64,000 bases of DNA, from positions 124,001-188,000 of the forward strand of contig VAXW01000002.1 of assembly GCA_005884115.1 (NCBI GenBank). The letters run 5' to 3'. The notes below the pieces were generated by a model that was not told where the DNA came from, did no database searches, and was given only the letters and a program-made list of their open reading frames with translations. This stretch comes from Actinomycetota bacterium. Its GTDB lineage: Bacteria > Actinomycetota > Thermoleophilia > Solirubrobacterales > Solirubrobacteraceae. A program made the translations under genes and the position numbers. This document shows positions 8,157-64,000 of this stretch, in pieces. Position 1 is the first letter of the stretch; each line of letters begins with the position of its first letter.

Positions 8157-9587
8157 TCACCCCGGAGCCATCAACCACGCGGGCTCGGCGCCCGCAGCCA
8201 GGTTCCTGAGGTGCGCCGTGTCGGCGCCGGCGCCGGTTGCGAGGGCCTCCTGCACGCCGCGCCTGTGCCGCTCGAAGCGCTCGTGCGCGTAGGGCAAGGC
8301 GAGACCGCGCGAGACCATGAACGGCCAGTCGCTCGCCTGCAGCGCGAGCAGCTCGCGGACTGCCGCCGCACCTGCTCGCGAGCGCGCCGAGAGCACTTCG
8401 AGCTCGGCGGCGCGCGCCGCGAAGGCCATCTCGGCGACAGCCGGACCCGACCACGTCGACAGATCGCCGCCCTCGCCCCAGCTGCTCGGCATGGAGTCCT
8501 GCAGCGCCATCTCCGAAGCCGGCTCGGTGCGCTCCAGCGCGTCGTCGAGGCGCACGAGCTCGAGCTCCTGTCGCGCGCACTCCTCGACGACCGCCTCCAG
8601 CCACGCGACGCCCTCATACCACCAGTGGCCGAGCAGCTCGGTGTCCAGCGCGCACACCGCCAGCCCGCCGCCCGGGGCGCCTGCGCGCGCGCGCTCGAGG
8701 CGCGCCTTCGTGCGCGCGACGAAATCGGCGGCGTGCCGCTGCGTCAGTGCGAGCGCGCGGGCGTGGTCATATCCGCTCCCGTCGTTGGCCCACGGGTTGT
8801 GGTGGTGCACGGTGTGATGGTGGTAGTCGCGGTAAGCGCCCGACGCCGGGTACCCCGACGCGCTCCACACCAGCGACATGGTCTCGCGGTCGATCGGCAC
8901 GAGCACGATCCCGCCGGCGCCAACGTACGTGCGCAGGTGCCCGGCGGCCCCGAGCCCGAGTGCGCCCGTGAGCTCGATGCAGACAGCGCGCACCCCGGCG
9001 TCGTGCAGGGCGCCTTCGAGATGAGGAGCGTAGGCGCACTCGGGCAGCCAGAATCCCCCGCGCCATGACTCCCCGAAACGGGCGCGGTGCGCCTGCGTCC
9101 CCGTCTGCACCTGCAGGCGCACGCCTGCGTCACTCGCCAGCAGCGGCAGCACGGCGTGCGTTGCTGAGCACGTCCACTGCGCGTGCGGCGCGAACGCAGC
9201 CAGCACGTCCTCGCCGCGCGCCCCGAAGCTCTGCAGCGCGCGCGCATAGTCGCTCCAGGCGCGCTCGACCTCGGCCGCCAGCTGCGCGTGGCCGCCGGCG
9301 CGCAGCCCGCGTGCATCCTCCGCGTGAGTCTCACGCCGGACCCCCTCGATGAACGCACCGAAGCGCCCCGCGATGCCCGGCGCCTGGAGCTGGTCGCACA
9401 GCACCGGCGTCAGCGACACCGTCACAGGCGCGCCTCTGTCGAGCAGCTCGAGCAGCGGCAGATAGCAGCTCGCCAGCGCCTCCCACAGCCACTCCTCTCC
9501 GAACGGCCAGGTCCCGAAGCCCTCGACGTAGGGCATGTGCGTGTGGAGCACGATCGCCAGCGCTCCCCGCTGTGAGGAGCTGCTCAA
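8157..9587 (-). CDS. GH57 / DUF1957 family 1,4-alpha-glucan branching enzyme-like protein
   Basis: 476 residues. GH57 region I is the N-terminal IVLHTHMPYVEG. The catalytic-nucleophile region III appears as GFWLPECAYAPHLE, with Glu in PEC. A helical DUF1957 C-terminal domain (ALQASDWPFMVSRGLALPYA) follows. The next ATG (9536) would fall inside the HTHMP motif, so the start must lie upstream. A TTG at 9587-9585 overlaps the TGA of the preceding methyltransferase (9586-9584), implying translational coupling. Family members branch or build alpha-glucans. In mycobacteria a GH57 protein (Rv3031) sits beside a methyltransferase (Rv3030), as here. Confidence 0.88.
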   Translation of the reverse strand: MSSSSQRGALAIVLHTHMPYVEGFGTWPFGEEWLWEALASCYLPLLELLDRGAPVTVSLTPVLCDQLQAPGIAGRFGAFIEGVRRETHAEDARGLRAGGHAQLAAEVERAWSDYARALQSFGARGEDVLAAFAPHAQWTCSATHAVLPLLASDAGVRLQVQTGTQAHRARFGESWRGGFWLPECAYAPHLEGALHDAGVRAVCIELTGALGLGAAGHLRTYVGAGGIVLVPIDRETMSLVWSASGYPASGAYRDYHHHTVHHHNPWANDGSGYDHARALALTQRHAADFVARTKARLERARAGAPGGGLAVCALDTELLGHWWYEGVAWLEAVVEECARQELELVRLDDALERTEPASEMALQDSMPSSWGEGGDLSTWSGPAVAEMAFAARAAELEVLSARSRAGAAAVRELLALQASDWPFMVSRGLALPYAHERFERHRRGVQEALATGAGADTAHLRNLAAGAEPAWLMAPG

Positions 9588-38600: not shown

Positions 38601-39337
38601 GCCGTGCAATTCAACGCGCACGCCTGCTCGTGTGCATGAGCACGGTATTTCGCGACCATCTGGTCAACGACTATGGCTTTCCGCTCGAGCGGACGGCCGT
38701 GATCCCCTACGCGGTGCGCCTGCAGCGCTTCTCCGGGCTCGAGAGCAAGCGCTCAGAGCCACCCACGATCCTCGTTCTGGGGCGGGTCGCAGTACGCAAG
38801 GGCGTCGAGGACGTCGTGGCAGTCGCCAAAGCGTTGTTCGCACGGAAAATCGACGCGCGCGTTCGCGTCGTCGGCGGGCCGGACCTGTCTTCGGACTACA
38901 GGAAGCTGCTGGAGGATCTTCCGGCCGAGAGTGCCGAATACGTTGGACGCATCCCTCCCGCTCAGATCCCGGCGGAGCTTGCGCGCGCGACCGTGCTGCT
39001 GCAGGCCAGCAAGTACGAGCCGTTCGGGTTGACGGTCGCAGAGGCGCTGGCGGCGGGGGTCGTCGTGGTCGCCACCAGCGAGGTCGGCGCGATCGAGGGC
39101 GTCGACCGGTCGGTCGTGGCGGAGGTCGAGCCGGGGGACGTGGAGGCGATGGTCGAGGGCATCTCGCGCATGCTCGAGAAGGTGCGCGCCAACCACGACG
39201 AGGTAGCCGAGACAGCGCGCGCCGAGGCCAAGCGTCTGTTCGCGCCGGAGGTCGTGTGCGGGCAGATGTCGGACGCGCTTGAAGCGCTCGTCGCGCGGAC
39301 GTCCGCCCGCAACGGGGCTACAGGTCCAGGCGGCTGA
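38594..39337 (+). pseudogene. GT4 glycosyltransferase fragment (C-terminal domain only)
   Basis: About 247 residues in frame from GTG 38594. It opens at the linker AIQRARLLVCMSTVFRDHLV of a GT4 enzyme and keeps the whole C-terminal Rossmann domain: PPTILVLGRVAVRKGVEDVV, ARVRVVGGPDLSSDYRKLL, and the donor-binding SKYEPFGLTVAEALAAGVVV (EX7E). The N-terminal acceptor domain (about 150 residues) is missing; the frame abuts the sulfotransferase fragment. It is a close relative of the glycosyltransferase at the right edge (63403). It could still be translated, but a functional GT4 needs both domains. Its end overlaps the metallopeptidase stop by 20 bases. Confidence 0.7.
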
Positions 39338-56815: not shown

Positions 56816-58682
56816 CGAGTCCGCAGAACCGATCGGCCCACAGGCCGAGAGCGAGCAGCGGCCAGAGCTGGTCGCTGTGGTCGTGGCGAGCAGATGCGTG
56901 CTCGGTCGCGAGCGCGGACACTGCCCGGCCGTCGAAGTAGCCCTCCTGAAAGAGCACGCCGCGATCGAGCTGACGCCCCAGCACCGGTGCGAGGGGGCCG
57001 CGCAGCCACTCAGCGGCCGGCACCCTGAAGGCCGTCTTGCGGTAGCGCCCGCCCCTGTGCGTGGCCACGATGTCGGGCCGAAGCATCTCGTGCACGAGCC
57101 TCTTTCCGCCGCCGGCCAGGTGCAGCGAGGTATCGATCGAGCCCGCGAGCTCCGCCAGTCCGCCGTGCAGGAAGGCGGTGCGAATCTCGAGCGAGCACAG
57201 CATGCTCGCGCGATCGGTCTTCATCAGCACGTCATCCGGGAGATAATGGACCTGATCGAGGTGCATCAGCCACCGTGAGGTCGATCCGTTCAGCTCGCCA
57301 GCCTTTGCCGCAAGGTCCGCCAGCAGGCCCTCTTCGCGCACGCCCGCCAGACGCGGGCCGTAGAGGTCGCCGCGGCGATGCCGCCGCCCGCTCGTCACCC
57401 AGTCGAGATTGCGCTCGAGCAGCGGCGAGGATCCGAGTCGCATGGCGAAGCGCCTACCGTGCGGCACCCGCTCGGATTGGCGCATCAGCAGGCCGAGCAG
57501 GCGATTGGCGGAGGTCGGCATGCCGGAGGTGACCCGCATCGAGCGCTCGAGCCAGCGGTAGCGTGGATAGCCGCCGAACAGCTCGTCAGAGCCCTCGCCG
57601 CCGAGGGCCACGGTGACGCGGGGGCGGGCGAACTCCGAGAGCGCGTGCAGCGGCAGGACGGCCGGGTCGGCCAGGGGCTGGTCGAGCGCCGCCAGCACGG
57701 CCGGTGCGCGCTGTTCGACGTCCGCCTGCGTGAGCGTGACCTCGTGGTGGTCGCAGTCGAGCCGCTCGGCGACCGTCCGCGCCTGCATGGTCTCGCTGAC
57801 CGAGCCGATGTCGTAGCCGACCGTGAACGTCTGCAGCCGCTGCGAGGTCTCACGTGCGGCGGTCACGGCGACGAGCGTCGAGTCGACCCCTCCGCTGAGA
57901 AACACGCCCACGGGGACGTCGGCGACCATCCGCGTCCGCACCGACTCGCCGAATAGCTCCTTGGCCTGGACTGTGAGGGCCTCGAGCGACTCGTGACGCT
58001 CGAGCCCGCGCTGCGCGGGCGACCACCAGCGGCGCGCTTTGCAGCGGCCTGTTCCGCGCTGCCAGCTGAGCAGGTGTCCCGGCGGCAGCTGCCGCACGCG
58101 CCGGGCGATCGTTCCCGGTCCCGGGACATACGCGAACACGAAGAAGGCGTCGATCGCCGCCGCGTCTAGCTCGCGCAGCGCCGGTCTCGCCTCTGCCAGC
58201 GCGGTCAGCTCGGATGCGAATGCGAGCTCCCCATCGTGCTCGTGCAGGAACAGCGGCTTCTCGCCGAAGCGGTCGCGTGCGAGCAGCAGGCGCTGGCGCT
58301 CCTGGTCCCAGATCGCGAAGGCGAACATGCCCTCGAGCGCGTGCACGAGCGCGTCGCCGTACTCCTCGTAGAGGTGCACGAGCACCTCCGTGTCCGTTCC
58401 GGTCGAAAAGCGGTGGCCGCTACGGCGCAGGTCCTCCCGCAGCTTGCGGTGGTTGTAGATCTCGCCGTTGAACGCCACCCAGACCGACCCATCCTCGTTG
58501 CACAGCGGCTGATGGCCGCCGGCGAGGTCGACGATCGAGAGGCGGCGAGCGCCGATCGTCACGCCGCCGCGTGGATCGGTGTGAATCCCCTCGTCGTCGG
58601 GGCCACGGTGCCGCAGCACAGCGCACATCGTGCGCACCGCCCGTCCGTCCGCGTCATCGGTGCTGCCGGCGATCCCACACAC
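56805..58682 (-). CDS. asnB: Asparagine synthase (glutamine-hydrolysing)
   Basis: 625 residues from GTG at 58682. This start is chosen because it gives Met-Cys-Gly-Ile-Ala-Gly: after Met removal Cys is the N-terminal glutaminase nucleophile. An ATG four codons upstream would bury it. Glutaminase blocks: HRGPDDEGIHTDPRGGVTIG, VAFNGEIYNHRKLREDLRR. Synthetase P-loop: GVFLSGGVDSTLVAV. C-terminal LPDDVLMKTDRASMLCSLEI is typical. In glycan clusters such enzymes (WbpS-like) amidate sugar acids. First gene of the minus-strand run. Confidence 0.9.
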   Translation of the reverse strand: MCGIAGSTDDADGRAVRTMCAVLRHRGPDDEGIHTDPRGGVTIGARRLSIVDLAGGHQPLCNEDGSVWVAFNGEIYNHRKLREDLRRSGHRFSTGTDTEVLVHLYEEYGDALVHALEGMFAFAIWDQERQRLLLARDRFGEKPLFLHEHDGELAFASELTALAEARPALRELDAAAIDAFFVFAYVPGPGTIARRVRQLPPGHLLSWQRGTGRCKARRWWSPAQRGLERHESLEALTVQAKELFGESVRTRMVADVPVGVFLSGGVDSTLVAVTAARETSQRLQTFTVGYDIGSVSETMQARTVAERLDCDHHEVTLTQADVEQRAPAVLAALDQPLADPAVLPLHALSEFARPRVTVALGGEGSDELFGGYPRYRWLERSMRVTSGMPTSANRLLGLLMRQSERVPHGRRFAMRLGSSPLLERNLDWVTSGRRHRRGDLYGPRLAGVREEGLLADLAAKAGELNGSTSRWLMHLDQVHYLPDDVLMKTDRASMLCSLEIRTAFLHGGLAELAGSIDTSLHLAGGGKRLVHEMLRPDIVATHRGGRYRKTAFRVPAAEWLRGPLAPVLGRQLDRGVLFQEGYFDGRAVSALATEHASARHDHSDQLWPLLALGLWADRFCGLDDL

Positions 58683-58843
58683 GCGAGCAAACATAGATCA
58701 TCGCCAACCGCGCTCGGTGGCCGCAGCGGTCGTAGCGGCACGAAACGGTCCACTCCTCGACATGTCTCCTCAAGCAGGCAGATCCTGGCGCCGATTAGGC
58801 CCCCGACACTGCCCTCGGCGACCGTCAGCATCACCGCTCGAAC

Positions 58844-60193
58844 ATGTCCGCAGCCCTCACTCGCCAGCTGACAGCCGCGCTCGCCTTGACCGCCGCGATC
58901 GCCGCCGGCGCCCAGGACGCTGCCGCACGCGCTCCCAGCGGTGAACGAGTCGGACTGTGCACCATCACGGCCGAAGTGGCTTCGGGCGTGGTCGCCTACG
59001 GCGAACCGGCCACGATTGCCGGGGCGGTGGCCTGCCCGGAAGGGGAAGCGGCGGCAGGGCTCCAGTTGACCGTCCACCAGCATTCGGCTGGGTCACCCGG
59101 CTTCAGCGTAGTGGGAACCGCGAGCATCGACGCGAGCAACGCGTACAGCTTCACCTCCGGCGCGATCGACTCGCCGTCCGCGTTCTACGTGAGCTTGGAA
59201 CGCTCGCGCAGCCCCCGCGTCCGGGTGCGAGCGACGCCGCGCATCTCGATCGCCTCCTCGCCCGCGGCCGGCGCGCTGCTCTCGCTCTCCAGCCACCGTG
59301 GGCAGAGCGCGCCCACCGGCAGCAGGGTGACGTTCAGCGGCGCCGTCTCACCCGCGAGCGCCGGCGCGCTCGTGACGCTGCAGCGCGAGGTTCCAGGCGG
59401 GGGCGAACGCTGGCGACCCATTGGCCTCGCGCAGACCGACGCCGAGGGCGCCTACACGATCGCACGCACTTTCCACGCGCCCGGCGAAGTGGTGGTTCGC
59501 GCGGTCGTGCACTTCGGCGGCCGCACGCTCGCCGCTGGGTCCCTGCCTCTGACATACACGCTCCTGAGGCGCCAGAACCCACGCCTGACGATCGACGCTT
59601 CGGCCGGCGCGCTGGCGTTCGGCCAAGCGGTGACCATCAGCGGTACGGCGCCCGGGGCGCCAAACGCCCCGGTGACGCTGCTGGCGCGCACGGGGGGCAG
59701 AGGGTTCGCGCCGCTGGCCGTGACGACCACCGACAGCACCGGCGCTTACTCCTTCGCGGGCCAGGTGCCGCTCCAGATCACTGCGTATCGCGTCTCGGGC
59801 GCGGGGACGCGCTCGGTCACCGTGCGCGAGGCCGTACACCCGGTGCTGAGCGAAGCGGTCTCCTCGGCGAGCGCTCCGGCCGGCTCTCCGCTCGCCTTCT
59901 CGGGCACCCTCACTCCGGCCCACGAAGGAGAGCTGGTTTTGCTGGAGCGAGCGAATCCAAGCGGGCTGTCCTTCCACGTCGTGGATTCGGCGCGCGTGGG
60001 CGCCGGCTCGACCTACTCGATCACCCACACCTTCCTCTACCCCGGCTCCGCCCGCGTCAGAATCGCTGTGCGCCGCGACTCGGAGCTCCAGAGCGTGGTC
60101 ACCGAATCGCGCGTGATTCAGGTCACGCCCCCACTCCGGTCCCGGGCCGCTGCGTTTCCCGAAGCGCTCGCGGCCCAGGCCAGCTCCAGCTAG
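58844..60193 (+). CDS. Secreted protein with repeated Ig-like modules
   Basis: 449 residues. Signal peptide about 1-29 (LTAALALTAAIAAGAQDAAA). Then an N-terminal module with VGLCTITAEVASGVVAYGEP and VACPEGEAAAGLQLTVHQHS, and three Ig-like modules of similar pattern (SRVTFSGAVSPASAGALVTL; AVTISGTAPGAPNAPVTLLA; PLAFSGTLTPAHEGELVLLE), each ending with a Tyr-x-x strand. No catalytic signature. Probably a surface or matrix protein. Divergent from asnB, 161 bases apart. Confidence 0.75.
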   Translation: MSAALTRQLTAALALTAAIAAGAQDAAARAPSGERVGLCTITAEVASGVVAYGEPATIAGAVACPEGEAAAGLQLTVHQHSAGSPGFSVVGTASIDASNAYSFTSGAIDSPSAFYVSLERSRSPRVRVRATPRISIASSPAAGALLSLSSHRGQSAPTGSRVTFSGAVSPASAGALVTLQREVPGGGERWRPIGLAQTDAEGAYTIARTFHAPGEVVVRAVVHFGGRTLAAGSLPLTYTLLRRQNPRLTIDASAGALAFGQAVTISGTAPGAPNAPVTLLARTGGRGFAPLAVTTTDSTGAYSFAGQVPLQITAYRVSGAGTRSVTVREAVHPVLSEAVSSASAPAGSPLAFSGTLTPAHEGELVLLERANPSGLSFHVVDSARVGAGSTYSITHTFLYPGSARVRIAVRRDSELQSVVTESRVIQVTPPLRSRAAAFPEALAAQASSS

Positions 60194-60217
60194 GCCCGGC
60201 CTTCCCATCCCCAAATG

Positions 60218-60236
60218 CCCCGCAAACGCGGGGTTT
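60218..60236 (+). terminator. Intrinsic terminator-like hairpin after the Ig-like protein gene
   Basis: Stem CCCCGC/GCGGGG (6 bp) with loop AAAC, followed by TTT. It lies 25 bases after the stop of the secreted protein gene and suits factor-independent termination. Confidence 0.6.
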
Positions 60237-60345
60237 GCCGAAAGGCTCCTCAGCAATGGGGTCCGGGTGACAGCGGGGTGCAATACACCGCATCGCCTCC
60301 CTTGCGGGCTGCATGCTCGCAGCCAAACGCGTGACAGCGTGATCT

Positions 60346-61023
60346 CTATGCCTCCTGGCCTTGCGCAGCCAGATCCACGCGGCGCTGTAAATAGCCGCGC
60401 GGATGCCACGTCATGAAGAACTTTTCGCACTGCGTATCGACGCGGAACTCGGGGTGCGCGGGAAGCCATTTTTCGAGCGCCTCCATCGGGCCGGGCCCGA
60501 ACCGGGGGGAGACAGGATGGCCGTTGAGGTGAGTGTCCTCGACGACCATGTAGCTGCGCGGGCTCACCATCGGGCCGTAGCAATCGAGCTCCTGCAGCAC
60601 GTGGTCACACTTGTGGCTGGAATCGAGGATCACCATGGTCGTGTCCGCGGCGTGGGCCCTTATGCGCTCGACGACCTCCGGCGCCGTCGAAGACCCCTCG
60701 ATGTATGTGATCCTCGGATGCTGGGGCAGGTCAGGTCTGTTGCGGATGTCTACCGTAAGCACTCGTCCGTGATCAAGGAGGTCGCAGATCGACGCCAGAT
60801 AAAATGCGCCGCCGCCGAAATTGGTTCCCGTCTCGATGATCAGATCGGGGCGTACCCGCGCGAGTATCTCCTGGTAGATCCACAGGTCGAAAGGCGATTT
60901 CATGACCCGCGTACCGAGCCACGTCGTGTCCTCTGACCACCACGTTCGCTGCTTCTGGTGGTACCACATGCGGTGAAAGAGGCCGGTGATTGCCTTTCCG
61001 CCGGCGGGCACGTGCCAAGCCAC
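60346..61023 (-). CDS. CmcI-like (cephalosporin hydroxylase family) methyltransferase
   Basis: 225 residues. TTWLGTRVMKSPFDLWIYQE, RPDLIIETGTNFGGGAFYLA and GRVLTVDIRNRPDLPQHPRI with VILDSSHKCDHVLQELD are the PF04989 (CmcI) pattern: a SAM-binding fold with a conserved His/Asp pair (SSHKCDHV). Family members methylate sugars or rhamnosyl groups in glycan clusters. Acceptor unknown. The ATG at 61023 is taken; the run upstream has no family match. Confidence 0.83.
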   Translation of the reverse strand: MAWHVPAGGKAITGLFHRMWYHQKQRTWWSEDTTWLGTRVMKSPFDLWIYQEILARVRPDLIIETGTNFGGGAFYLASICDLLDHGRVLTVDIRNRPDLPQHPRITYIEGSSTAPEVVERIRAHAADTTMVILDSSHKCDHVLQELDCYGPMVSPRSYMVVEDTHLNGHPVSPRFGPGPMEALEKWLPAHPEFRVDTQCEKFFMTWHPRGYLQRRVDLAAQGQEA

Positions 61024-61256
61024 CGCTGCACCTCGATCATCAATTTCATCCGGTCATTGTCTCCTGCCTCCCCACGTCGGTCGACACGGCGACGACTGAG
61101 CGGTCCAAGGCTACCGGCAGAATCGCGGGCGCGCGGCGGGCGCGCTCGGCCCGGCGTGGCTCACGCGCATCGGCGCCGATCGCGCCAGGTGCAGGAGTTT
61201 ACGCCCGCATGCCGGCGCATAGCACCCGGCAGGCCGGCGCCGGCCCCCGAGGTCGG

Positions 61257-61297
61257 TGGTAAGGAAGGGGTCTCCGGTTCGAGTCCGGAGCTGGGCT
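61257..61297 (+). pseudogene. tRNA-Thr(GGT) 3' half
   Basis: From TGGTAAGGAAG on, the sequence is a tRNA 3' half: anticodon GGT with its 3' loop AA, stem GGAAG, variable GGGTC, T-arm TCCGG/TTCGAGT/CCGGA, then acceptor GCTGGGC and T as discriminator. The bases before it (GGTCGG) cannot pair as the anticodon stem, and no D-arm or 5' acceptor strand lies upstream. So it is truncated at the anticodon loop, typical of an attachment site left by an integrative element. Confidence 0.75.
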
Positions 61298-61415
61298 CTC
61301 GGCGAAAGCCCTGCAATCGCGCGCCTCTCCCCACCCTGGCGGCGACGCGGCGACAGGCGCCCAGGACTTCAGGCCCGCGCGTGCTGCCCATTCGCGGCGT
61401 TGCCGAACCGAAAGC

Positions 61416-61723
61416 ATGGGCCTTCAACTTCAAGATCTCCGACTCGCTCATTGACCGCTATGCCGCCGGGCCGAGCGCGAGCACAATCGAGACCGCGAGC
61501 AGGCTACGAGAGGCAGTTGCAGTCGCGCTTGGGGGGCTACCGGGTATTTCTCCAGGGCTCTTATCGCAACAGCACCGGAGTGACCGACCTCGACAATGTC
61601 GACATCGTCGGGCTGGCCACCACCGTGCACAGCACTCGCGGTGGACCGCCGGCGACGAACCCGTTGACATGGGATGAGATCTTCGGACGTGTAGAACGCC
61701 GGCTCGCGAGCGACTCCCGATAG
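61416..61723 (+). pseudogene. CD-NTase-like nucleotidyltransferase remnant (CBASS-type cyclase family)
   Basis: N-terminal pattern of an oligonucleotide-cyclase family protein: AFNFKISDSLIDRYAAGPSA and STIETAS are in one frame, then RYERQLQSRLGGYRVFLQGS and YRNSTGVTDLDNVDIVGL in another. GSY.N.T and an acidic pair are the family signature, but the pair reads NVD where DVD would be expected. Two frame breaks are visible (at about 61419, after the ATG, and about 61500), and the frame stops at 61723 after ~100 residues although a whole enzyme needs ~300. The 3' part and any effector gene are missing. Confidence 0.6.
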
Positions 61724-61759
61724 CGAGCCGCTCACGACGCAAGCCACCGGTGTCTGGCG

Positions 61760-62295
61760 TTAGGAGCGCCGCTTGAACACGGCGGCCATTAGAACGAGGC
61801 CGTCGACGAGCACGATCCGGCCGAGCGCGGTGCTCACCGTTGCCCATGCCGTTCCAGCGAGCGCCCGGGCGGCCGTAAACGCCGAGGCCCAGATCGTGCA
61901 GCCGGCAAGCGTCATCGCAACGAAGCCGGGTAACGGAATACGCTGAGCGCCGGCGGGCAGGGATACGAACCTCCGGGCTAGCGGGGGGAGCCTGGCGATC
62001 AGGACGGCGGGGGTTCCGTGCCTCTCGAGCAGCCGCTCCGAGCTCTGAAGCACGCCGCCGGCGCTGGGGATCCGTTCGAGCGCGCGGGTGGCGCCGAGCG
62101 CGTAGGCGATCAGCGAGCCGACGAGGTTCCCGGCGGTGGCGGCAACGACCGCGCCCGGGAAGCTCATCCAGCCTTGGTGGACAGCGAACCCGAGAACAGC
62201 AGCGTGACCTCGCTCGGGATCGGGGTGCATGCGCTCTCAGGGACCATCAGCAGGAAGACGCCGAGGACCCCGAAGCGGGTGATGACGCTGGTCAT
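61760..62295 (-). pseudogene. DedA-family membrane protein, frameshifted
   Basis: From ATG 62295 the frame reads MTSVITRFGVLGVFLLMVPE then SACTPIPSEVTLLFSG, the DedA N-terminus, and then stops. The rest continues in another frame: FAVHQGWMSFPGAVVAATAG, NLVGSLIAYALGATRALERI, FVSLPAGAQRIPLPGFV. A single missing base near 62189-62191 (at the GGGTTC run) would restore it. DedA (SNARE-associated) proteins are lipid flippases. If not a sequencing error it is a pseudogene. Confidence 0.7.
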
Positions 62296-62373
62296 CGGTC
62301 GGCGCCAGAGAGCGTGGCGACTGCGGGCGCGTCGACGGCGCGGGCTGCGAGAATCCCCAGGACGATAAGAGCC

Positions 62374-62400
62374 ATTAGATGTCAAGCCTACTTATCTAAT
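62374..62400. promoter_or_regulatory. Inverted repeat, likely MarR operator
   Basis: ATTAGAT (62374-62380) and ATCTAAT (62394-62400) form a perfect 7-bp inverted repeat separated by 13 bases, an AT-rich palindrome in GC-rich DNA, between the DedA start and the MarR start. Divergent MarR genes commonly repress themselves and their neighbour from such sites. Confidence 0.55.
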
Positions 62401-62905
62401 GCCGCCACCACGCCGACTCCCCGTGGGAGGCTGCCGAGGCGCTCGCTGCGGTCGCGCCACTGGCCAGCCGTTGGACCGAACGGCTGCTTGCCGGCCACGA
62501 TCCGCCGGTGACGATCGCTCAGTTCCTCGCGCTGCGTGCGATCGGCGGCGAGGGCCTCTCGGCATCGGAGCTGGCGCGGCGCACAGGTAGTCTCGGGCCC
62601 GGCCGTATCGCAGCTACTCACCGGCCTGGCCGACTCGGGGTTGCTGCAGCGCCGCGAGTTCGCAGACGAACGACGTCGCCAGACGCTCGCGGTCTCCCTA
62701 ACCGGTCGCATCGGCCAATGCGCTGCTGCGCGATCGCTTCTCCCAGCTGCTGTCCGAGCTTCCCCGGCCGGACGCTGACCACCTCGCACGCGCGCTTTCG
62801 CATCTTGAAGCAGTGCTTGCCGGGTCGCCGCCGCCTCGGCGACCACCGCGCCCGCCCCCGCCACCACCGCACGGCCACCCGCCGAGACCACGCCACGAGC
62901 GCTGA
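62399..62905 (+). pseudogene. MarR-family regulator, frameshifted
   Basis: Three frames must be joined to give a MarR protein: WEAAEALAAVAPLASRWTER then LLAGHDPPVTIAQFLALRAI; then VSGPAVSQLLTGLADSGLLQ and RREFADERRRQTLAVSLT (recognition helix and wing); then ANALLRDRFSQLLSELPRPD and HLARALSHLEAVLAGS. Breaks lie near 62587 and 62705, and the ATG at 62399 is in yet another frame. Proline-rich low complexity closes it. Divergent from the broken DedA gene. Confidence 0.7.
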
Positions 62906-63238
62906 CGACAGTCGATGACGGTCCGCATCCGTGGCGTTCGCCGGCGTTGGTCGTGATCGTCGCCCCGTCGACCCATGTGTTCGCCGGCGGCTGTTGGGTC
63001 CCGGGATATAGCCGCGCGTAGAGCCACTGCCGTGCTCGGACGCGCTCCGGGACCGAAGCAGGTCCGCCGTCCACGCTGGGGTCGCGAAGCTGCTGCTCGC
63101 GAATCGCGGGGCTAAGCGCGCCTGCTTCTCGTGCGCGAGCGGTAGCCAGCGCCGAGGCGCATCTCACTGCTGCAGCGGACGAAGGCCGACGTCGCATCAA
63201 GCGCAGCGAGACGCGCTCTTCAGCAGACGTTCGACGTA
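62906..63238. other. Uncharacterised stretch inside the degraded islet
   Basis: 333 bases. A minus-strand frame across it reads RARQWLYARLYPGTQQPPAN and could be a decayed coding remnant, but no family or start codon supports it. Nothing else recognised. Confidence 0.4.
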
Positions 63239-63282
63239 TGGAGCCAACCGGGATCGAACCGGTGACCTCCTGCTTGCAAAGC
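63239..63282 (-). pseudogene. tRNA-Ala(TGC) 3' half
   Basis: On the minus strand: loop TTTGCAA with anticodon TGC, stem GCAGG, variable AGGTC, T-arm ACCGG/TTCGATC/CCGGT, acceptor TGGCTCC and discriminator A. Upstream of the loop (GGGCGC) the anticodon stem 5' strand and D-arm are missing. Same kind of truncation at the anticodon loop as in the tRNA-Thr fragment, in the opposite direction. Confidence 0.75.
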
Positions 63283-63402
63283 GCCCGCACCCGCGCCACG
63301 TTTATCGCCGAAAGATACATTTCCCCGCCACGGAGCACCCGGGGCGGGGTCGTTAATGCACTTCCGGGGTAGTCCCCTGGTGGGTGCGCGATCCTCGGGC
63401 GC

Positions 63403-64000
63403 TCACGAGCGTTTGACGGCCTGGTGGTCGCCGAGCGCCGTCGAACGCGCCGGGAGTCCTTGGGCACCACGCCGGGGAGCTCGCTCGCGCTCCACCAGCG
63501 CCTCCAGAGCGTGCGAGATCTGCGCGCACACCACGTCGCGGGCGAACCGTCGCTCGGCCTCCGCGCGCGCGAGCACGCGTATCTGAACAGGGTTCGCGCG
63601 CAGCCGTTCGAGCATCTCCTCGATGGCGCGAGCCAGGCCCTCGACGTCGCCCGGCGCCACCTCTGCCGCAACCGAGCGGTCGACGCCCTCGATCGAGCCG
63701 ACCTCGCTAGTCGCCACGACGGGGACCCCCGCGGCAAGCGCCTCCAGCACCGACATCGGGCACGGGTCGTACTTGCTCGCCAACAGCACGAGATCGGCGC
63801 GCTCGAGCTCCGCCGGCATCTCCTTTGCAGGGATGCGGCCGCCGTATTCGGCGTTCTCGCTGGGGAGATCGTCAAGCAGCTTGGTGTAGTCCGACCACGT
63901 GCTCGGACCGCCGATAACCCGGACACGCACGTCGATCGCGCGCTCGCGCAACATCCTGGCCACCTCCACCACGTCCTCGAGGCCCTTGCGCATCGACACC
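63403..64000 (-). CDS. GT4 glycosyltransferase, 5' end outside window
   Basis: The visible 199 residues are the C-terminal Rossmann domain: RKGLEDVVEVARMLRERAID, VRVRVIGGPSTWSDYTKLLD, VLLASKYDPCPMSVLEALAA with the donor-site EX7E modified (the first Glu is replaced: YDPCPMSVLE). It continues beyond base 64000. It is a close paralogue of the truncated glycosyltransferase at 38594: both share RKG(L/V)EDVV, DY.KLL.DLP, GRIP and EVG.IEGVDRSV in the same order. Acceptor unknown. Confidence 0.8.
   Translation of the reverse strand, partial: VSMRKGLEDVVEVARMLRERAIDVRVRVIGGPSTWSDYTKLLDDLPSENAEYGGRIPAKEMPAELERADLVLLASKYDPCPMSVLEALAAGVPVVATSEVGSIEGVDRSVAAEVAPGDVEGLARAIEEMLERLRANPVQIRVLARAEAERRFARDVVCAQISHALEALVERERAPRRGAQGLPARSTALGDHQAVKRS

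Follow-up and report, generated by a model that had tools for sequence, protein, structure and literature searches.

Facing tRNA 3′ halves in a polysaccharide locus

The window analysed here is a stretch of 64,000 nucleotides (C1:124001–188000) from a genome of 3.14 Mb (G000) whose assembly is incomplete (10 contigs, 87.84% complete). Close to its right end, two tRNA 3′ halves face each other across 2 kb. The left one, on the + strand (61257–61297), is a tRNA-Thr(GGT) half that reaches from the anticodon loop as far as the discriminator base, and the right one, on the − strand (63239–63280), is a tRNA-Ala(TGC) half that reaches from the anticodon loop to the 3′ end and agrees with the intact gene at C5:375725 in 42 of 42 bases. 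The opposed orientation, the positions and the breaks at the anticodon loop had all been proposed in a first-pass annotation and are confirmed here. Both halves are bordered on the outside by intact genes: on the left, 233 bp from the Thr half, a CmcI/rhamnosyl O-methyltransferase-like gene (60346–61023, − strand, Pfam RMNT_CmcI, E = 1.2e-60), and on the right, 122 bp from the Ala half, the glycosyltransferase gene of a polysaccharide cluster (63403–64000 and beyond the window end, − strand, Pfam Glyco_trans_1_4, E = 9.3e-20). The outer (5′) neighbours of the halves are polysaccharide-type genes and not integrase-bearing element ends.

In a whole-genome pattern search, the Thr half was recovered at C1:185258 (0 mismatches in 41) and the Ala half at C1:187239 (0 mismatches in 42), the latter with the same score as the intact tRNA-Ala(TGC). 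The Thr half matched three places in the genome, including the intact gene, and the Ala half matched seven at ≤3 mismatches, with the intact gene counted; control searches with the reversed Thr and Ala patterns gave 0 matches each. The displaced Thr half near C1:333825 is identical to that of the window in 41/41 positions, with 1 mismatch in the base beyond the tRNA. The genome's own intact tRNA-Thr(GGT) (C1:326618–326690) has 3 mismatches to the pattern, 1 of them beyond the tRNA, so that the window half agrees with it in 39 of 41 positions. The comparison of the halves with the intact genes of the same genome, which the earlier annotation had called for, therefore yields near-identity for Thr and full identity for Ala. 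Both Thr differences are in the T-stem (T…A in the window half, G…C in the own gene) and lie on opposite sides of the stem, so the base pair is still matched. The window half is also 41/41 identical to the intact tRNA-Thr(GGT) of a relative (G011); it looks as if the window half keeps the older sequence, and the current tRNA-Thr gene of this genome probably received its own 3′ half from an element.

Full-length tRNAs are absent from both sites, as the first-pass annotation had supposed: ARAGORN found 0 tRNAs in the 64-kb window, Rfam gave 0 matches up to E = 1 at 58000–64000, and neither half has a full-length partner tRNA at the other end of an element. The missing 5′ halves are not found elsewhere in the 64 kb, where the best matches, both distant from the window halves, had 12 mismatches in 32 for Thr (11–14 for five shuffled queries) and 10 in 31 for Ala (11–12 for shuffled queries). 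Identity with the intact Thr gene ends 1 base upstream of the anticodon-loop block GGTAAGG, and identity with the intact Ala gene ends 2 bases upstream of the block TTTGCAAG. A break in the anticodon loop corresponds to an integrase crossover site, and the same break is seen in most other solo Ala halves. The intact tRNA-Thr lies 141 kb to the right of the Thr half on the same strand of C1, while the intact tRNA-Ala(TGC) is on another contig and at least about 309 kb off (187 + 122 kb from the contig ends). A look for tyrosine integrases around the islet, also suggested earlier, gave none within the window: it holds 0 of the 16 genome matches to the tyrosine integrase family PF00589, the one family covered, and the matches on C1 are at 384210, 397605, 397903 and 462720. 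Exact copies of the Ala and Thr halves numbered 0 and 0 in viral_contigs.

Flanking genes and their relatives

Among the matches listed, homologues of the right glycosyltransferase occur in polysaccharide clusters of seven genus genomes (G018, G002, G012, G010, G004, G014 and G020). In five of the seven (G004, G012, G014, G018 and G020), the next gene is a convergent homologue of the genes at 68180 and/or 88396. Here these two genes are located on the other side of the glycosyltransferase and share its strand, so synteny is broken at the right edge of the islet. A second stretch of the same contig (C1:162795–163297, window 38795–39297) is 73% identical to the glycosyltransferase at 63403.

A site without the islet was sought in two ways, with the islet and its flanks against 40 relatives, where none of the matches listed was colinear, and with the flanks against the fetched loci, where none was colinear either. 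All genus genomes are too distant for an empty-site comparison: among the matches listed, the right flank reaches at most 78% identity at the DNA level, and the only genus match to the left-flank methyltransferase is at 54% protein identity, on a 12-kb contig that carries no half (G012:C20). Other genes of the region matched that contig weakly, as glycosyltransferase-type genes of 27–38% identity that are not next neighbours. In genome_contigs, the methyltransferase matched 12 loci at 39–51% identity with no evident genus member among them, near relatives being perhaps excluded from that set. When the flanks and two islet parts were compared with the genome's own fetched loci, only stretches of 22–47 bases (E 0.006–0.021) were found besides self, and the comparison with other genomes returned the G011 element end described below, distant methyltransferase homologues and a 37-base match in G017 (L084, E = 0.006).

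Genes of the islet and their decay

Three genes can be recognised between the halves. Next to the Thr half is the truncated stub of a CD-NTase (CBASS-type oligonucleotide cyclase; 61375–61723, + strand, PADLOC), of which the stretch before ~61500 is a guess. Within the ORF 61256–61723, it matches positions 42–69 of the 297 positions of the PADLOC cyclase (28 positions, E = 2.5e-5) and is terminated by a stop at 61723, short of a complete nucleotidyltransferase domain; the match to the solved CD-NTase 6e0k is weak (E = 0.064). With the presumed N-terminal part, which would lie in a different frame, 0 PADLOC families matched; the data thus show a truncation but do not show that frame break. With the single model searched, PDLC00788, the stub is the sole match among 24 genus genomes, but 0 of 14 control genomes matched as well, so its uniqueness in the genus says little. 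The second gene encodes a DedA/VTT-domain membrane protein (61760–62385, − strand, Pfam VTT_dom, E = 2.3e-15), which in tblastn with an intact homologue from G009 changes frame once, at 62188–62224. The third encodes a MarR-family regulator (62466–62842, + strand, Pfam MarR_2, E = 0.0019, under the curated cut-off); the intact G009 homologue aligns to it by tblastn in three frames (E down to 1.65e-24), with frame changes at 62590–62603 and 62705–62802. The earlier statement that every islet gene has frame breaks therefore applies to the DedA gene (one break) and the MarR gene (two breaks), whereas the CD-NTase is truncated.

The counterparts of the DedA and MarR genes in G009 form an intact divergent pair on a contig that bears neither an Ala nor a Thr half (G009:C92), so this pair is not evident mobile cargo. 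The CD-NTase stub would fit defence cargo. A glycosyltransferase remnant spread over three frames lies 2.5 kb to the right of the islet (65816–66260 in window numbering, past the window end), so decay is not strictly bound to the islet.

A tRNA-Ala integration hot spot in the genus

The intact tRNA-Ala(TGC) at C5:375725 is followed downstream by five displaced Ala halves in the same orientation (C5:326549, 322643, 316894, 314919 and 311841), which are more diverged or truncated with distance from the intact gene, and the 49-kb unit of this array encodes an integrase (C5:334897). Further Ala halves of the genome are at C5:394656 (+ strand), at C4:180312 (− strand) and in the window; the own tRNA-Thr has its displaced half 7.1 kb downstream. 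The Ala-half pattern was found at ≤3 mismatches, intact genes included, in 21 of 24 genus genomes, and the fetched stretches contain a solo Ala half in 15 of the 24, a half being counted as solo when no 5′ half precedes it with up to 6 mismatches allowed. The same Ala half recurs beside unrelated sequences across the genus, and in three cases (G002:C33, G003:C163 and G016:C4) an integrase is located 0.8–0.94 kb from a displaced half. Integration at tRNA-Ala(TGC) is thus frequent in this genus, which makes the gene a hot spot.

At least 15 intervals, each bounded by adjacent halves of the same orientation on a single contig, were listed (five in G000, two in G020 and one each in G002, G003, G011, G012, G013, G016, G018 and G022) and searched for the tyrosine family PF00589 alone. 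An open integrase is present in 2 of the 15 (the 49-kb interval of G000 and a 12-kb interval of G016) and a broken or partial one in 3 (G018, G020:C37 and G003). The remaining 10 have no PF00589 integrase; nine of them span 0.7–7.4 kb and one spans 23.5 kb. These integrase-less units carry ordinary genes, such as RibD_C (G011), a SnoaL-like gene (G012), a TetR–SDR–FAA hydrolase group (G000) and an NTP_transf/HEPN pair (G013), and would fit decayed or cis-mobilisable elements (CIMEs). Because 10 of the 15 listed units are integrase-less, a cassette system can also be envisaged, in which the tRNA-Ala(TGC) 3′ half would serve as the attachment site of units mostly 0.7–7 kb in size, each holding anything from a single gene to an operon and terminating in a half plus a conserved motif, that trans-acting integrases would stack at the tRNA gene and could misplace at non-tRNA sites, for instance in the present polysaccharide locus. 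We regard both the system and this description of its units as speculative and rather improbable; if true, it would be the tRNA-based counterpart of integron or SCC cassette arrays.

In G018:C145, a hybrid half (L039:15995–16036) combines the anticodon loop of tRNA-Ala(CGC) with a TGC-type T-arm and acceptor; an intact tRNA-Ala(CGC) lies about 3 kb upstream of it. In G003, three adjacent tyrosine recombinases occur in runs on four contigs (C288, C202, C84 and C260), which we presume to be akin to recombinase-in-trio elements. The sequences 5′ of the displaced Thr half (L031:13707–13826) and of an old Ala half (L032:1884–1930) in G000 are alike by eye (CCGCCCTCGCTCG and related words), which hints that one integrase lineage used both tRNA-Thr and tRNA-Ala.

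Element ends beside the halves

A position matrix was built from the flanks of 16 intact tRNA-Ala genes (AnTGCCTGCAnATnGGCGGnTT), beside which the end motif marks the element end, and was scored against a background of 18,270 stretches sampled from both strands of the window. An element-end-like motif directly follows the Thr half (61298–61325, + strand) with the spacing that is usual next to tRNA-Ala genes of the genus and scores 12.9 bits, a level reached by 0.02% of the sampled stretches. The inner flank of the Ala half is a weak match (7.3 bits, reached by 0.25%). Across the genus, 9 of 25 solo Ala halves, that of the window among them, have an element-end-like 3′ flank at the ≤0.4% level. 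An ordinary tRNA-Met terminator reaches 11.4 bits on the same matrix, and the motif may be either an integrase arm site or an element-borne terminator.

A putative element end beside the Ala half (63188–63238, − strand) is also found beside an Ala half in G011:C47. Window positions 63188–63280 align with L082 3684–3776 of that contig at 83.5% identity over 97 columns with the half included, and the inner flank aligns at 76% over 55 columns (E = 0.007) with the half left out. The G011 half therefore has ~50 more bases on its inner side in common with the window, so that the element end recurs at a second location. This homologous G011 flank scores only 0.3 bits on the matrix, a level reached by 7% of the sampled stretches.

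Elsewhere in G000, 7 of 43 tRNA genes carry the end motif at the ≤0.1% level (Gly GCC, Ala TGC, which is in the training set, Pro GGG, Leu TAG, one Met, Ala CGC and Thr TGT). For four of these genes (Leu TAG, Pro GGG, Thr TGT and Ala TGC), integrases are located ~1–40 kb downstream, which may point to one element family with several tRNA targets.

Origin of the islet

The proposal of the first-pass annotation that the halves are attachment-site remnants of integrases is supported by the breaks in the anticodon loops, the tandem tRNA-Ala arrays, the solo halves in the genus, the integrases near displaced halves and the element end in common with G011. Integration into a tRNA gene places element DNA, or the chromosome that originally lay downstream, on the 3′ side of a half, and the DNA located 5′ of a displaced half belongs to a newer element. 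Since the 3′ sides of both window halves point inward, the islet is the element side. We tentatively favour the reading that the halves are att relics of tRNA-specific elements that integrated ectopically in the polysaccharide locus and then decayed. The elements would have been tyrosine-integrase elements specific for tRNA-Thr(GGT) and tRNA-Ala(TGC), with a copy of the tRNA 3′ half in attP and a crossover in the anticodon loop, and they or attP-bearing fragments of them would have reached a place in the polysaccharide locus that is not a tRNA gene. The simplest route would be that an excised circle integrated at a secondary site, an event that would leave a tRNA half at just one of the two ends, its 3′ side pointing to the element. 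As the second junction is not found in the islet, the far ends must on this route have been lost, and the islet, with its genes decayed, would be what remains of element DNA and cargo. Two different elements are likely because the halves derive from two different tRNA genes; the earlier suggestion of leftovers from two elements holds in this respect, but neither half is an ordinary attR scar that adjoins its own tRNA gene.

Several results argue against ectopic integration. No ectopic core site (CTTTGCAAG or ATGGTAAGG, ≤1 mismatch) is present inside the islet, the window has no PF00589 integrase, and no empty site was found among the relatives compared. In the right orientation, the Thr core is also absent from the remainder of the window and from a further 20 kb of contig, and the Ala core occurs elsewhere in the window just twice, at remote sites with one mismatch (41856 and 31159). 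Two independent ectopic events 2 kb apart are moreover a strong demand. The main alternative, somewhat less likely, is that the halves are attR/attL relics that once lay beside their own tRNA genes and were moved by inversions or translocations, through homologous recombination at repeated halves or an integrase acting on halves. The repetition of the halves in the genome would provide for this, the right glycosyltransferase lacks a neighbour that it has in most relatives, with the synteny break falling at the right edge of the islet, and rearrangement has precedents: partial and full tRNA copies of Thermococcus are parted by an inversion (PMC9897764), and an archaeal integrase inverts chromosome segments (PMC5495485). 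However, the Thr half lies upstream of its tRNA gene on the same strand, an arrangement that a single inversion cannot yield, and two different halves 2 kb apart would require two or more events that ended there.

The halves could instead be ordinary displaced attR ends, with newer large elements outside (to the left of the Thr half and to the right of the Ala half) and the polysaccharide genes as their cargo. The inner halves of arrays elsewhere look alike, 9 of the 25 solo Ala halves having an element-end-like 3′ flank, but the nearest tRNA genes of any type on C1 are at 8671 and 269087 (genome-wide tRNA search), no integrase match on C1 is closer than C1:384210, and the homologues of the right glycosyltransferase in seven other genus genomes make it no obvious island cargo, so this arrangement is unlikely. 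An assembly artefact, either sequence wrongly joined at the 42-base repeat or false frame breaks due to read errors, appears very unlikely: the assembly is indeed incomplete, the Ala half is a multi-copy repeat and read errors could produce such breaks, but the genes immediately outside the halves are intact, the Thr half shows the same arrangement despite only three near copies, and a repeat swap could presumably exchange the inner sides but not create the junction between outer flank and half. Finally, the intact T-arm and 3′ acceptor strand of each half would be expected of functional halves, be they pieces of split tRNA genes or tRNA-like portions of some other RNA, yet the window has neither 5′ halves nor an Rfam match in the part searched, and the occurrence of the same half beside unrelated sequences across the genus renders such a function hardly conceivable.

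Relation to known systems

tRNA halves from integrative elements, accretion arrays and secondary-site integration have all been published. tRNA gene fragments left by integrative elements are attR sites whose partial and intact copies can be parted by rearrangement (PMC9897764); the halves described here are similar, being 3′ halves of ~41–44 bases whose sequence is nearly identical to that of an intact gene at another place in the genome, but differ in that two different halves face each other over 2 kb and neither tRNA gene is at the site. CIMEs and accretion arrays consist of decayed ICE/IME units with att sites kept (PMC5704250). The tRNA-Ala locus, with its tandem units between repeated halves, mostly devoid of a tyrosine integrase, resembles them; the window islet, by contrast, has no same-orientation att pair (Thr half on +, Ala half on −) and therefore falls outside the definition by attL plus attR. 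The tRNA-specific element ICEBs1 was observed in the laboratory to integrate at secondary sites (PMC3715440). The ectopic integration proposed here is similar, as an element normal to a tRNA gene would have inserted elsewhere, but unlike those integrations it would be represented by decayed relics alone, and its second junction was not recovered.

Solo tRNA halves can mark the landings of tRNA-specific elements, or of adjoining DNA, off tRNA genes. In annotation, they should not be taken for tRNAs, tmRNAs or peptides, and tRNA remnants put spurious peptides of the latter kind into databases. In G000:C5, ARAGORN called a tmRNA that is almost surely false (L032:12643–12904) and whose 3′ end is a solo tRNA-Ala 3′ half. 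In the window, the antisense of the Ala half begins a 44-aa ORF (63238–63372, + strand) that starts with MEPTGIEPVTSCLQS.
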